DNA of 64,000 bases from Acidobacteriota bacterium (GTDB lineage Bacteria; Acidobacteriota; Terriglobia; Versatilivoradales; Versatilivoraceae): the NCBI GenBank assembly GCA_028875575.1, contig JAPPDF010000088.1:1-64000 (forward strand), given 5' to 3'. Position 1 is the stretch's first letter. The number at the start of each line of letters is the position of its first letter. The notes below the pieces were generated by a model. It did no database searches. It saw nothing but the letters and a program-made list of their open reading frames with translations, and was not told the DNA's origin. Both the position numbers and the translations under genes were made by a program. Shown piece by piece: positions 1 to 4,814 of this stretch.

Positions 1-904
1 GGCTCGGTCGCCCTTTCGTCTCTCCCGAGGAGGGTCTCCTGGCATTTTCCATGGCGATAAGCTTGGCCTTGATCCTGTCAAACTCGGTGGTGTTGATCAC
101 GTACTGCTCCCGTTCCGGAAGAATCTCCTCAATATTCGCCTGAGTCTTCTCGATGCGCTTGTGGGTAGGCGGATGAGTCGAGAACGCCGTGGCCAGCTTG
201 CCCTTCTTTTTCTTCTTCTTGGACTGCAGTTTCTCAAAGAAGGAAACGAACCCGGTGGGGTCGTACCCGGTCTTGTACATGTACTGAAGCCCCAGGTAGT
301 CGGCCTCGGTTTCCGCCTTGCGGCTGAACCGCAGGAACTGCATCGGAATCAGGAAGCTGGATGCATTGTAGATCGCCGACGCAATCCCTCCGCTGAGAAA
401 AATCAGAGGGATCATGGCATAGTTGGCGATGGTGGCCTTGGTTTGCTGCTCGGTGGCGTGCCGGGCGGTCACATGGGCAATCTCGTGGGCCATCACGCCG
501 GCAATCTCGGATTCGCTGTCGGCGGCGGTGATCAGTCCGCTGTTGACGTAGAGGAATCCCCCAGGTAGAGCCATGGCATTGATCTCTTCCGAGTCGATCA
601 CCTTGATGGTGAAGGGCACCTTGGCGTCGGAATTGCGCACCAGGTTCTGGGCGACCCGGTTTATGTACTCGGTGACTTCAGGATCCTCGACAAGCTTGAC
701 TTGACGTTCGATCTGCTGGGAGAGCTGACGGCCCAGAGCGATCTCCTTCTCGATCGAGATGATGTTCAAGTTCCCCTTGTTGACGTTTCGATTCCCGATC
801 TCGTCCAGATCGGAGTTCTTGCGGGCCTTGGCATACGACGGCACACCGCCGGCAAGGCTCAATGTCAAGCAGGGAATGAGCACAAATTTCTTGAGAAACT
901 GCAT
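1..904 (-). CDS. M48 family zinc metalloprotease (BepA/LoiP-like), C-terminus beyond window edge
   Basis: Reads as about 300 residues before running off the window, so the C-terminus is missing. It begins MQFLKKFVLIPCLTLSLAGG, a signal peptide, so the enzyme is exported. The catalytic zinc motif HEIAH is at residues 140-144 inside VMAHEIAHVTARH, and the third zinc ligand is in AETEAD (about residue 198). A hydrophobic stretch follows (about 160-190) and a lysine-rich loop (KKKKKKGK, about 229-236). M48 enzymes of this type degrade misfolded envelope proteins. The ATG at 904 lies 78 bp from a tandem operator (982-1018) that is repeated beside the chaperone and response-regulator genes 1.5 kb away, so it probably belongs to the same envelope-stress regulon. 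The family call is firm; the BepA/LoiP subtype is inferred. Confidence 0.93.
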   Translation of the reverse strand, partial: MQFLKKFVLIPCLTLSLAGGVPSYAKARKNSDLDEIGNRNVNKGNLNIISIEKEIALGRQLSQQIERQVKLVEDPEVTEYINRVAQNLVRNSDAKVPFTIKVIDSEEINAMALPGGFLYVNSGLITAADSESEIAGVMAHEIAHVTARHATEQQTKATIANYAMIPLIFLSGGIASAIYNASSFLIPMQFLRFSRKAETEADYLGLQYMYKTGYDPTGFVSFFEKLQSKKKKKKGKLATAFSTHPPTHKRIEKTQANIEEILPEREQYVINTTEFDRIKAKLIAMENARRPSSGETKGRPS

Positions 905-981
905 GACGCCCTCCTTCTCGGGTTTCATATCCCGTAGATTTGTGGTCCACAGGATCAGATGCCGATCGAGGCGCTAGCGAG

Positions 982-1018
982 GTAAAGAGTCGGTCAACGT
1001 TTCGTAAAGATTCGTCAA
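982..1018. promoter_or_regulatory. CpxR-box-like tandem operator, copy 1
   Basis: Four pentamers lie in one orientation: GTAAA (982), GTCAA (993), GTAAA (1004), GTCAA (1014), spaced 11, 11 and 10 bp. The linkers also resemble those of copy 2 (2499-2535). E. coli CpxR binds GTAAA-N5/6-GTAAA, so about one half-site per helical turn fits an OmpR-family dimer pair. It lies upstream of the M48 protease, whose transcription runs leftward. Confidence 0.75.
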
Positions 1019-1100
1019 GACCGGACCCACTCTTCCAATGGCCTTGCGGAAAGACCATTGGGAGAGGCCCCTAGTATCGGGCTTTCCGATCGCCGGCGGT

Positions 1101-1691
1101 TCAGCGAGCCGCTTGCTGCACGTAGACCAACCTCTGAGTTCGCTCCCGCGGTCCGCCCGTGGTGGTTCTGACCACGGTCATGGTCCTGCCGTCATCGGAG
1201 AGGCTGCGAACTTCCTTTGACTGCATTAGCCCCATGGGGGTTTCCATGCTGGATTCGGTCACCAGCCGATTCCCTTCCCAATAGGTCTTGGACGGTGTGG
1301 ACATGCCGCCGAACCCCGGGTTGGTCGACTCTTTTCCGTCCGTGGCGAACCTGGATGTCCGGACCCGTTCTTCGCCCCCAAAATTCAGGGTTTGTCGGAT
1401 GACGAGCATCCCCTCCTTGTGATCGATGGTCAAGGGACCCCTCAGGCCTCCCCGGCCCATGCGACCCATGCCGCGCCTGCCGGGACCGCCGCCCCTCTGC
1501 CGGCCGCCTTCACGGGATCTGCCGGCCCCGAAACGGCCTGTGCCGGAACCGCGTCCTCCCCTGCCCATCTCACTCCTCTCGGGGTCCAGGATCCAGGTGC
1601 CGGAGAAATTGGGTTTTTCACCCGCCAGCAGCTCCACGGACAGCCCCAAAACCAGGATCGCCGAGAACACCACGGCTCTATTGGTTCCCAT
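1101..1691 (-). CDS. Secreted Gly/Arg-rich protein of unknown function
   Basis: A 196-residue protein with a signal peptide (cleavage near LLAGEKPNF) followed by NFSGTWILDPERSEM, a motif I associate with small secreted acidobacterial proteins. Residues about 43-85 are a Gly/Arg/Met low-complexity stretch, then a C-terminal beta-rich part (LTIDHKEGMLVIRQTLNFGG onward) ending VYVQQAAR. No enzyme motif is visible. It lies between the M48 protease and the Spy-like chaperone, on the same strand. No tandem operator is present directly upstream; a hairpin at 1780-1803 separates it from the chaperone gene, so it may be expressed by partial read-through. An envelope role is inferred from position only. 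RBS: AGGAAGAG lies just upstream of the ATG. Confidence 0.75.
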   Translation of the reverse strand: MGTNRAVVFSAILVLGLSVELLAGEKPNFSGTWILDPERSEMGRGGRGSGTGRFGAGRSREGGRQRGGGPGRRGMGRMGRGGLRGPLTIDHKEGMLVIRQTLNFGGEERVRTSRFATDGKESTNPGFGGMSTPSKTYWEGNRLVTESSMETPMGLMQSKEVRSLSDDGRTMTVVRTTTGGPRERTQRLVYVQQAAR

Positions 1692-1779
1692 CTCTTCCTC
1701 CCTTTTTCAATTTCATTTCTGGTTGACCGCCGATCATTGCGTTCGATCCTCTCCAGTCCGAGCCCACACCAACAAGATT

Positions 1780-1803
1780 GGGCCCGACCGGAGAGTCGGG
1801 CCC
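1780..1803 (-). terminator. Hairpin after the Spy-like gene (probable terminator)
   Basis: A perfect 9-bp stem, GGGCCCGAC / GTCGGGCCC, with a 6-nt loop. On the minus strand it is followed by AATCTTGTT, only moderately T-rich. It starts 50 bp after the Spy-like stop codon, so it would terminate or attenuate transcription into the next gene. Confidence 0.6.
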
Positions 1804-1852
1804 AAACCAACGTTTCCAGAATGGCAAACCCCGTGGGGGCGATGTCCAGCGA

Positions 1853-2398
1853 TTACTCTCCGCCGGGGCCGCCGCCGCGACGCTGGTGTCTGCGTTCCCT
1901 GCGCTCTTCCCAACGGGCCTTAAGCTTCTCTTGAAACGAAGTCCACTTCTGCTGCTGCTCCGGCGTCAGGACATTCTTGACATCCAACCGCGTGTTGGCG
2001 CCGATTGCCACCAACTGTCCCTGGAGCTTTCCCTGCTTGGTGGCCAGAGTGTCGATCTTGGTCGTGTCCCCTGCCTTGACGGCTTCTCCCAGAGCCTTGC
2101 GGTTGGTCCGCAGTTGCTTGCGAATCGGTTTGGATTGATCCCGGGCGGCCTTTCGGATTTTCTTGATGTCGGCCTGTTGGGCTTCGGTCAAACCCAGGAA
2201 CTCGACCATCATCGCACCCCGCATCCCGATCCTGCCCTTGCCGCCGGGACCCTCCCCCCGACCACCTCCACCCCTGAAGCCCGCGAACTGGCCAAACGCG
2301 GATTCCACCAGGAGAATCGACGCCAGAGCGAAGACCGAGACCACCACGCCTCTTGCCAGGATCCTTCCGGTTTGAGTTTTGCTTGAAGTTTGAAACAT
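1853..2398 (-). CDS. Spy/CpxP-like periplasmic chaperone
   Basis: The chosen ATG (2398) has an excellent ribosome site, AAGGAGG 8 nt upstream; an in-frame ATG at 2443 would add 15 residues without one. The 181-residue product starts MFQTSSKTQTG, has a signal peptide ending near ESAFGQ, a Gly-rich segment, then a charged helical region with two LTxxQ-type motifs, LTEAQQADI and LTPEQQQKW, the signature of the Spy/CpxP/CnrX fold. Such proteins are ATP-independent periplasmic chaperones and, as CpxP, repress the Cpx sensor. The gene is divergent from a CpxR/CpxA-like pair and shares the operator at 2499-2535. Whether it inhibits the neighbouring sensor is inference. Confidence 0.9.
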   Translation of the reverse strand: MFQTSSKTQTGRILARGVVVSVFALASILLVESAFGQFAGFRGGGGRGEGPGGKGRIGMRGAMMVEFLGLTEAQQADIKKIRKAARDQSKPIRKQLRTNRKALGEAVKAGDTTKIDTLATKQGKLQGQLVAIGANTRLDVKNVLTPEQQQKWTSFQEKLKARWEERRERRHQRRGGGPGGE

Positions 2399-2498
2399 TG
2401 GAATTTCCTCCTTTTCTGGAATTTTCAAGAGCCTTGACAGCAACCTCGCTCCTCGCCTGACTCTTACCCATATATACGTCGCTCCCGGGGAAGGGGGT

Positions 2499-2535
2499 GT
2501 AAAGAGTGCGTCAGCGTTCTGTAGAGTTTTGTCAA
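2499..2535. promoter_or_regulatory. CpxR-box-like tandem operator, copy 2 (divergent promoter region)
   Basis: GTAAA (2499), GTCAG (2510), GTAGA (2521), GTCAA (2531): spacings of 11, 11 and 10 bp, identical to copy 1 at 982-1018, with matching linker bases (GAGT, CGTT). It lies 101 bp upstream of the chaperone ATG and 97 bp upstream of the regulator ATG. On the minus strand TATATA (2471-2476) is a possible -10 for the chaperone; on the plus strand TTATAC (2585-2590) could serve the regulator. Neither has a good -35, as expected for activated promoters. Confidence 0.78.
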
Positions 2536-2631
2536 TCCGTTTTCTTGACAGTTGAGGTGCACCGATCCAAAACAGTACCCTTAGTTATACGGAGGCATAC
2601 CGGACCGCGCCCACCACCTGTCGGGGTCACC

Positions 2632-3336
2632 ATGGATCGTTTGCTGGTCGTCGATGACGATACCGAATTGTGTTCGCTGGTCACCAGATATCTGGAAGCG
2701 GAAGGGTTTCAGGTGGACTCCGTCAACCACGGGCAGGAGGGCATCGAACGAGCCCTCTCGGGCGATTACTCGCTGGTAGTGCTGGACGTGATGCTGCCCG
2801 GCGTCAACGGTTTCGACGTCTTGCGCCGCATCCGAGCTGAATCGCGCATCCCGGTGCTCATGCTGTCGGCCAGAGCCGAGGACGTGGAGAGAATCGTGGG
2901 ACTTGAGATCGGCGCCGACGATTACCTGGGAAAGCCCTTCAATCCACACGAACTGGTTGCGCGCATCCGGGCCGTTTCCCGCCGCTCCCGTCCCAACAGA
3001 GAGCTCGAGCCCGACACCGATCGTCATCCGCTCCTGAGAGTGGGAGACATCGAGCTGGACAGGAATGCCTGGAAAGTAATGCGAAACGGCCAACCGGTGG
3101 TGCTGACCACGCTGGAGTTCAACCTCCTTGATATGCTGCTCAGGTCGGCCGGACAGGTGTTGCCCCGTGAGGAGTTGGTTCAGACCCTGCTGGAACGCGA
3201 GTTCGACCCCTTCGACCGCAGCATCGACATGCACGTCAGCAACCTGAGGAAGAAACTGGGCCGTCACGTCAATGGAGTCGAACGAATCAAATCGGTCCGC
3301 GGAGTCGGCTACGTCTATCCCAATCCCGGACCTTAG
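2632..3336 (+). CDS. OmpR-family response regulator (CpxR-like)
   Basis: A 234-residue two-domain regulator. The receiver domain has the acidic pocket DDD (8-10), phosphoacceptor D52 in LDVMLPG, S79 and K101 (KPF). The C-terminal winged helix shows LTTLEFNLLDMLL, DRSIDMHVSNLRKKLG and IKSVRGVGYVY, diagnostic of the OmpR/PhoB DNA-binding domain. The ATG at 2632 is chosen because the receiver starts at once (MDRLLVVDDD); GGGG lies 6 nt upstream. The sensor kinase follows 26 bp downstream, and the operator 97 bp upstream suggests autoregulation. The CpxR assignment rests on domain type, the paired kinase, the divergent Spy-like gene and the GTAAA-type operator. Confidence 0.95.
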   Translation: MDRLLVVDDDTELCSLVTRYLEAEGFQVDSVNHGQEGIERALSGDYSLVVLDVMLPGVNGFDVLRRIRAESRIPVLMLSARAEDVERIVGLEIGADDYLGKPFNPHELVARIRAVSRRSRPNRELEPDTDRHPLLRVGDIELDRNAWKVMRNGQPVVLTTLEFNLLDMLLRSAGQVLPREELVQTLLEREFDPFDRSIDMHVSNLRKKLGRHVNGVERIKSVRGVGYVYPNPGP

Positions 3337-3362: not shown

Positions 3363-4814
3363 ATGCGTAGTCTCGTACTGAAAATCTTCATCTGGTTCTG
3401 GGCAGCCATGGCCCTGGTGGGCATGGCCCTCTATTTCACTACCCGAGCCACCATCTCGGAGCAGGTCGAGCGCCGGGAGCGCCAATGGATCGGGATGACC
3501 ATGCCCCTGGTTGCGCAACGGGCGGCCGACATTCTGGAAAGGGACGGCCCCTCGGGCCTGAGGCGAAACATCAATCGACTCAATCGCCGGCGTCGTTTCA
3601 ATGTCTCCTTCCTCAACGAAGCGGGAGAGCTCCTGGCCGGGCCGGTTCCATCAAGTCGGGTCAGGAACCTGGCGGCCAGGGCCGCGCGAAGCAACGATCG
3701 CCTGGTGGAGATCGTACAGGGAGAACGCCTGGTGGCCCAGAGCGTGGTCTCGCCCGCCGGCCGCCGGTTCGTCCTGGCGGGAGACATCCGGGCCCGACTT
3801 CCGGGAAACCCACCCGGACGCCCCCGGCGGCCGCTACCCATCCTCAGAGCCCTGGGCATTCTGGACGCCGACATCCAGACCCAGGTGCTTCGCATCCTGG
3901 CCGTGTTTCTGACGGCCGGACTGGTCTGCTATGGCCTGGCCTGTTATCTGACCGCTCCCCTGAAGAAGCTTCGGACAGCGACCCGGAAACTGGCGGACGG
4001 GGACCTGGCCGCCAGGGTCGGAAAAGCGCCGGGCGGCCGCCAAGACGAACTGACCGAACTCGGCCACGATTTCGACCAAATGGCCGAACGCATCCAGATC
4101 ATGGTGGGAGCTCAGCGTCGCCTGTTGAGTGACATCTCCCACGAGCTACGCTCGCCCCTGGCTCGCCTCAATGTGGCCTTGGCGCTGATTCGCCAACGCA
4201 TGAAGGGTCGATCCGACGATGAACTGGACCGTATTGAGCTGGAAGCGGGACGCCTCAACGAGCTTATAGGCCACCTGCTGACTCTCAGCCGCATCGAGAG
4301 CGGCACGATGGCGCCGGCCCGCAACGACATTGCCCTGGACCAACTGGTGGCGGAGGTGGTGGCCGATGCCGAATACGAAGCCCGCGGTTCGGGAAAGGCC
4401 GTACGCATCCTCTGCAGCCAGGCCTGCGTGGCCCTGGGCAATCGAGAGTTGTTGAGAAGCGCCGTTGAGAACGTGGTCCGAAACGCCGTCTACTACACCG
4501 CGGACGAAACCGCGGTCGAGGTTGAACTGAAACTGGCTGGAGCGAACCGGGACATGGCCGTGATTACGGTTCGCGACAGGGGAGACGGAGTGCGCGAGTC
4601 GGAACTCGGCGAGATCTTTCGACCCTTCTACCGGGTGGCCGCGGCCCGGGAACGACAGAGCGGCGGCACCGGACTGGGGCTGACCATCACCCGGCAGGCC
4701 GTGCAGTTGCACAACGGCTCCGTGGCCGCTTCCAACGCCTCCGGAGGAGGGCTGCGAATTGAAATACGACTGCCCGCCCGTCCGGGAAGCACGGGCTCGG
4801 CCGAGCCACTGTAG
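3363..4814 (+). CDS. CpxA-like sensor histidine kinase
   Basis: A 483-residue membrane kinase: TM1 at about 7-25, a periplasmic sensor (about 30-174) rich in Arg, TM2 at about 177-197, a HAMP linker (about 198-250), a HisKA domain with the phosphorylated H260 in SDISHELRSPL, then a HATPase domain with the N box (ENVVRNAVYYT), VRDRGDGV and GGTGLGL boxes. It should autophosphorylate and phosphorylate the upstream regulator. The layout is that of CpxA. It is cotranscribed with the regulator (26-bp gap). No terminator is evident; an intergenic repeat follows. Confidence 0.95.
   Translation: MRSLVLKIFIWFWAAMALVGMALYFTTRATISEQVERRERQWIGMTMPLVAQRAADILERDGPSGLRRNINRLNRRRRFNVSFLNEAGELLAGPVPSSRVRNLAARAARSNDRLVEIVQGERLVAQSVVSPAGRRFVLAGDIRARLPGNPPGRPRRPLPILRALGILDADIQTQVLRILAVFLTAGLVCYGLACYLTAPLKKLRTATRKLADGDLAARVGKAPGGRQDELTELGHDFDQMAERIQIMVGAQRRLLSDISHELRSPLARLNVALALIRQRMKGRSDDELDRIELEAGRLNELIGHLLTLSRIESGTMAPARNDIALDQLVAEVVADAEYEARGSGKAVRILCSQACVALGNRELLRSAVENVVRNAVYYTADETAVEVELKLAGANRDMAVITVRDRGDGVRESELGEIFRPFYRVAAARERQSGGTGLGLTITRQAVQLHNGSVAASNASGGGLRIEIRLPARPGSTGSAEPL

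Follow-up and report, generated by a model that had tools for sequence, protein, structure and literature searches.

A probable Cpx-type envelope-stress regulon with four-half-site operators in an acidobacterial gene cluster

At the start of the window, by which we mean the whole 64-kb stretch of acidobacterial DNA that was analysed, the genes for a protease, a small secreted protein and a Spy-like protein are read from one strand and those for a response regulator and a sensor kinase from the other (Table 1). Profile matches to an M48 protease, an LTXXQ/Spy-CpxP protein, an OmpR-family regulator and a HAMP-HisKA kinase closest to CpxA agree with the identities proposed for the main genes by an earlier, sequence-only reading of this DNA. 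The M48 protease scores 119 bits with Pfam and 175.8 bits with the NCBIfam BepA model, below the cut-off of 570. The Spy-like protein scores 40.7 and 33.8 bits with the NCBIfam Spy and CpxP models, both below the equivalog cut-offs. Profile searches of Pfam and NCBIfam gave no match for the product of the 1101-1691 gene, a glycine/arginine-rich, secreted protein with NFSGTW near its N-terminus, which is apparently encoded in one operon with the Spy-like protein.

Table 1. Genes, operators and candidate signals at the start of the window
Feature	Position	Strand	Remarks
M48 metalloprotease, BepA/LoiP-like	2..904	-	3' end cut by contig start; Pfam PF01435
Weak candidate -10 box of M48 gene, TCTGAT	954..959	-	22 bp after operator 1; 4/6 to consensus; kept in genus
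Operator 1, GTAAAGAGTCGGTCAACGTTTCGTAAAGATTCGTCAA	982..1018	+	Half-sites GTAAA 982, GTCAA 993, GTAAA 1004, GTCAA 1014; M48 protease gene on minus strand
Hairpin, probable terminator	1030..1066	.	Between 1101-1691 gene and operator 1; perfect 12-bp match to inverted-repeat pattern, none expected by chance
Small secreted protein, family not assigned	1101..1691	-	Downstream of Spy-like gene; ORF kept in G001
Spy/CpxP-like LTXXQ periplasmic protein	1853..2398	-	Pfam PF07813, 52.8 bits
Candidate -10 box of Spy-like gene, TATATA	2471..2476	-	22 bp after operator 2 in gene orientation; kept in genus
Operator 2, GTAAAGAGTGCGTCAGCGTTCTGTAGAGTTTTGTCAA	2499..2535	+	Half-sites GTAAA 2499, GTCAG 2510, GTAGA 2521, GTCAA 2531; between divergent Spy-like and regulator genes
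Candidate -35 box of regulator-kinase operon, TTGACA	2545..2550	+	Just after operator 2; in all genus copies
CpxR-clade OmpR-family response regulator	2632..3336	+	234 aa; ATG at 2632 kept in genus
CpxA-like sensor kinase (HAMP, HisKA, HATPase)	3363..4814	+	NCBIfam CpxA models best

Operators 1 and 2 lie where the sequence-only reading had placed them, each with its half-sites spaced 11-11-10 bp. To call them identical, as that reading did, is too strong, for 29 of their 37 bases are the same, and the scan pattern proposed with them (GTMAR four times over) misses operator 2 by one base, at GTAGA. When up to three mismatches are allowed, the two operators are the sole matches in the 64-kb window; shuffled versions of the window give a mean of 0.09 matches and never reach two. 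Each operator also scores better than every one of 2000 dinucleotide shuffles made from the intergenic region in which it lies. A chance origin is excluded by this expectation of 0.09 in the window, taken together with the presence of both arrays in all six genomes of the genus that carry the genes.

A third array lies ~2.1 kb before base 1 of the window, at 1799-1835 of contig C83 (L073) of the same genome, between divergent genes for a BON-domain protein and a PQQ-type propeller, the latter assigned by eye; in this array the fourth half-site is degenerate. The end of C83 and the beginning of the window overlap exactly over 55 bases, so that the three operators fall in one cluster of ~10 kb comprising the BON/PQQ-propeller, M48 protease and Spy-like chaperone/CpxR-CpxA genes; both contigs align collinearly to a single contig of the relative G001. 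When the core GTAAAGANTSSGTCAR is searched for at one mismatch, exactly three sites and no fourth are found in the genome. Since these account for all sites, a second M48 protease gene (G000:C94:18582-19412), whose product is 71% identical to the first and which is kept in the genus, is without an array. Five extra sites appear at two mismatches and are attributed to chance, as a reversed-pattern control gave equally many.

Within the genus, operators 1 and 2 are kept in six of seven genomes, the seventh being an assembly without the regulator and without the window-type M48 gene. The sequence-only reading had made conservation among relatives with the same genes a check on its proposal, and in the genus both arrays are present in every such genome, with no match to the reversed pattern. 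A scan for three half-sites finds the third array upstream of the BON-domain gene in all seven. The linker GAGTCG/GC and the half-sites are conserved to about the same extent, and the flanks of the genus copies are also ~84-87% identical.

The strict four-half-site pattern occurs in 7 of 396 genomes of the phylum (control matches, 0), and five of the seven belong to f9, another family of the same class. There the array is found in 5/5 genomes with a close orthologue of the regulator (E < 1e-86) against 0/38 others, a co-occurrence of about one chance in a million by direct counting, with the threshold picked after the data were seen and among related genomes whose positives may be one sub-lineage. 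The array adjoins the regulator-kinase genes in four of these five, where its other side is mostly taken by a divergent Spy-like gene or a gene for a MacA-like efflux adaptor; in G262 it stands before a Spy-like gene alone, away from the regulator gene, and a further array in f9 precedes an RND adaptor. A Spy/CpxP-type gene divergent from the regulator-kinase operon is seen in the window, in E. coli and at L166, L170 and L078. In G008, a relative from the same family as the window, an array spaced 11-11-10 and degenerate in its last half-site lies upstream of a TolC-type outer-membrane gene (L199, 4195); the regulator gene of G008 has no array ahead of it. Of 80 named relatives whose upstream regions were scanned, one Acidobacteria record had an array of four half-sites, and boxes of two half-sites were seen in some Proteobacteria and in a Desulfofustis. 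Most of the distant relatives scanned show neither array nor box, and the operator is therefore not universal. As a separate observation, a genome of another class, G350, has four GTAAA half-sites before the gene for a 160-aa exported protein of no assigned family, far from the regulator gene (L165, 4897).

The identity of the regulator is best judged from its phylogeny. The NCBIfam OmpR model scores it as well (214 bits) as does the CpxR model (207 bits, below the equivalog cut-off of 341), which leaves the tree as the basis for its placement. In a tree of 40 regulators it groups with E. coli CpxR, with support of 97/98, in a clade that comprises 30 rows, a result that shows membership of the clade rather than branching order inside it; E. 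coli OmpR, RstA, PhoB, BaeR, CreB and ArcA all lie outside. Over its full length it is 43.5% identical to CpxR, 39% to OmpR and at most 36% to the others of E. coli. Its recognition helix, DRSIDMHVSNLRKKL, nearly matches DRAIDMHISNLRRKL of E. coli CpxR; that of OmpR is ERSIDVQISRLRRMV. Among named regulators the nearest come from Acidobacteria, and the regulator of G058, from the same class, is 80% identical to one in an Acidobacteria gp1 genome, which points to Acidobacteriota as the phylum.

For the kinase, the CpxA models are the best matches by more than 100 bits. The Legionella CpxA model matches nearly end to end with 326 bits, below its cut-off of 800, and the E. coli CpxA model 279 bits, below its cut-off of 486; BaeS comes next with 162. 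As the NCBIfam cut-offs are missed, the pair is described here as a Cpx-type system and not as a curated CpxR/CpxA equivalog. The sensor domain of the kinase is modelled with a pLDDT of 78 and has a PAS-like core; the best PDB matches of the isolated domain are the sensor domains of CitA and AbfS (E ~4e-3), and no CpxA sensor is among the 50 matches listed.

The position of the arrays relative to candidate promoters suggests how they might work. PhoB-type activators bind operators placed next to the -35 region. At several of the promoters considered here the array, read in the orientation of the gene, ends in CTTTAC and is followed 22-24 bp on by a -10-like box (besides those in Table 1, TATAGA before the BON-domain gene and TTATAA at L015), a distance that puts the operator against the -35 region. 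We infer that the kinase would sense a periplasmic signal and phosphorylate the regulator, two dimers of which would then sit side by side on each four-half-site operator with one half-site per turn of DNA. With the operator ending ~22 bp before the -10 box, the bound regulator would adjoin or cover the -35 region and could recruit RNA polymerase to the genes for the Spy-like chaperone, the M48 protease and the BON-domain protein. Operator 2 probably also serves autoregulation of the regulator-kinase operon, which has the conserved TTGACA just after this operator.

Other accounts of the arrays have to be weighed against this one. Direct-repeat operators of 10-11 bp are common to the OmpR family and the genome encodes some two dozen candidate regulators, any of which might be the one that binds, with the place of the arrays beside the window regulator being incidental. 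Such a different regulator is nevertheless improbable: in f9 the array tracks the window-type regulator and mostly precedes the gene that encodes it, and GTAAA repeats are known targets of CpxR, whose recognition helix is matched by that of the window regulator. It is harder still to credit that the arrays, as part of a promoter or of some other sequence, are kept by close descent alone and have no part in regulation. The genus copies, taken from related genomes with flanks conserved to a like degree, would allow it, but the array is also seen in other families, where the flanks are unrelated, and is common to three different promoters of one genome, and we give this explanation almost no weight.

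It could also be held that the circuit arose independently of the proteobacterial Cpx system and converged on GTAAA half-sites, given that the 11-11-10 spacing and the linker bases GAGTCGGTCA differ from those of E. coli (10-10-10) and that the targets are partly different (M48 BepA/LoiP-like, BON and MacAB). Set against these differences are a regulator of the orthologous clade, a CpxA-like kinase and, in E. coli, the same divergent Spy/CpxP gene order with a four-half-site operator in the same position and orientation, which together make convergence very unlikely.

The cluster is thus best described, with good though not complete confidence, as a Cpx-type envelope-stress regulon in which the kinase would act through the CpxR-clade regulator on four-half-site operators at the Spy-like, M48 and BON genes. 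The sequence-only reading had proposed a Cpx-like regulon outside Proteobacteria; synteny, regulator phylogeny, the recognition helix, the conserved operators and the envelope targets support that proposal well, with regulation itself as the putative step. Judged from sequence, the regulon looks homologous to proteobacterial Cpx, an extension of a known system and not a new one, and its operator organisation is most simply taken to be the same one inherited, with spacing and linker bases particular to the lineage. A recognisable Cpx circuit with its operator is thereby placed in a phylum for which no description was found in the open PMC library, which suggests that the cpxP-cpxR operator with its four half-sites predates the Proteobacteria or has moved between phyla. 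The phased four-half-site array in every operator (the fourth being degenerate at BON) also raises the rather speculative idea that loading of two dimers is cooperative and gives a sharp, all-or-none switch for a single 10-kb repair cluster, unlike the broad and mostly two-half-site regulon of E. coli. With three operators, the regulon is compact enough for the role of each half-site to be tested.

Tandem operators of this general kind are known elsewhere. The pho boxes of PhoB are tandem 11-bp direct repeats in which the end of the operator lies close to the -10 box and RNA polymerase is recruited. The window operators share this 11-bp tandem layout near a -10 box, but the half-site sequence is different and PhoB belongs to another clade of the regulator tree. 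Another parallel is found in Pseudomonas aeruginosa, where CpxR selects pairs of GTCAA and GTAAA in vitro and muxA, yceJ and PA3965 of strain PAO1 each have two boxes 11 bp apart (PMC12802237); on our own reading of that material, each such pair of boxes amounts to three half-sites. The PAO1 system therefore has the same GTCAA and GTAAA half-sites as the window, and efflux targets as in f9. It differs in that no four-half-site array was seen in the accessible text, and in having 37 predicted transcriptional units as against the three operators here (PMC12802237).

The closest likeness is to CpxRA-CpxP of E. coli K-12 (b3912, b3911 and b4484), in which a CpxP/Spy-type gene is likewise divergent from a regulator-kinase operon. 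The gap between cpxP and cpxR, read on the cpxR strand, contains GCAAA-N5-GTCAG-N5-GTAAA-N5-GTAAA, whose score was reached by none of 2000 shuffles. These four half-sites have the same position and orientation to both genes as in the window, GTCAG occurs in both, protease and chaperone targets are shared and the recognition helix is near-identical. There are also clear differences. The E. coli array is spaced 10-10-10 with a degenerate first half-site, where the window arrays have 11-11-10. Of five E. coli promoters checked, cpxP alone has a full array, and nothing comparable is present at spy, degP, yebE or htpX, whereas three operators share one cluster here. The M48 BepA/LoiP-like and BON targets are unlike those of E. 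coli, and the regulator has only the 43.5% identity to CpxR given above. The GTCAA half-site and the tandem array thus both have precedents, in the four half-sites at E. coli cpxP-cpxR and in P. aeruginosa CpxR operators, where GTCAA half-sites and triple arrays at 11 bp already occur (PMC12802237). The earlier description of a 'related but independently organised circuit' accordingly finds no support, for the organisation of the acidobacterial operators already has its counterpart in the four half-sites, GTCAG included, that lie in the same orientation between cpxP and cpxR.
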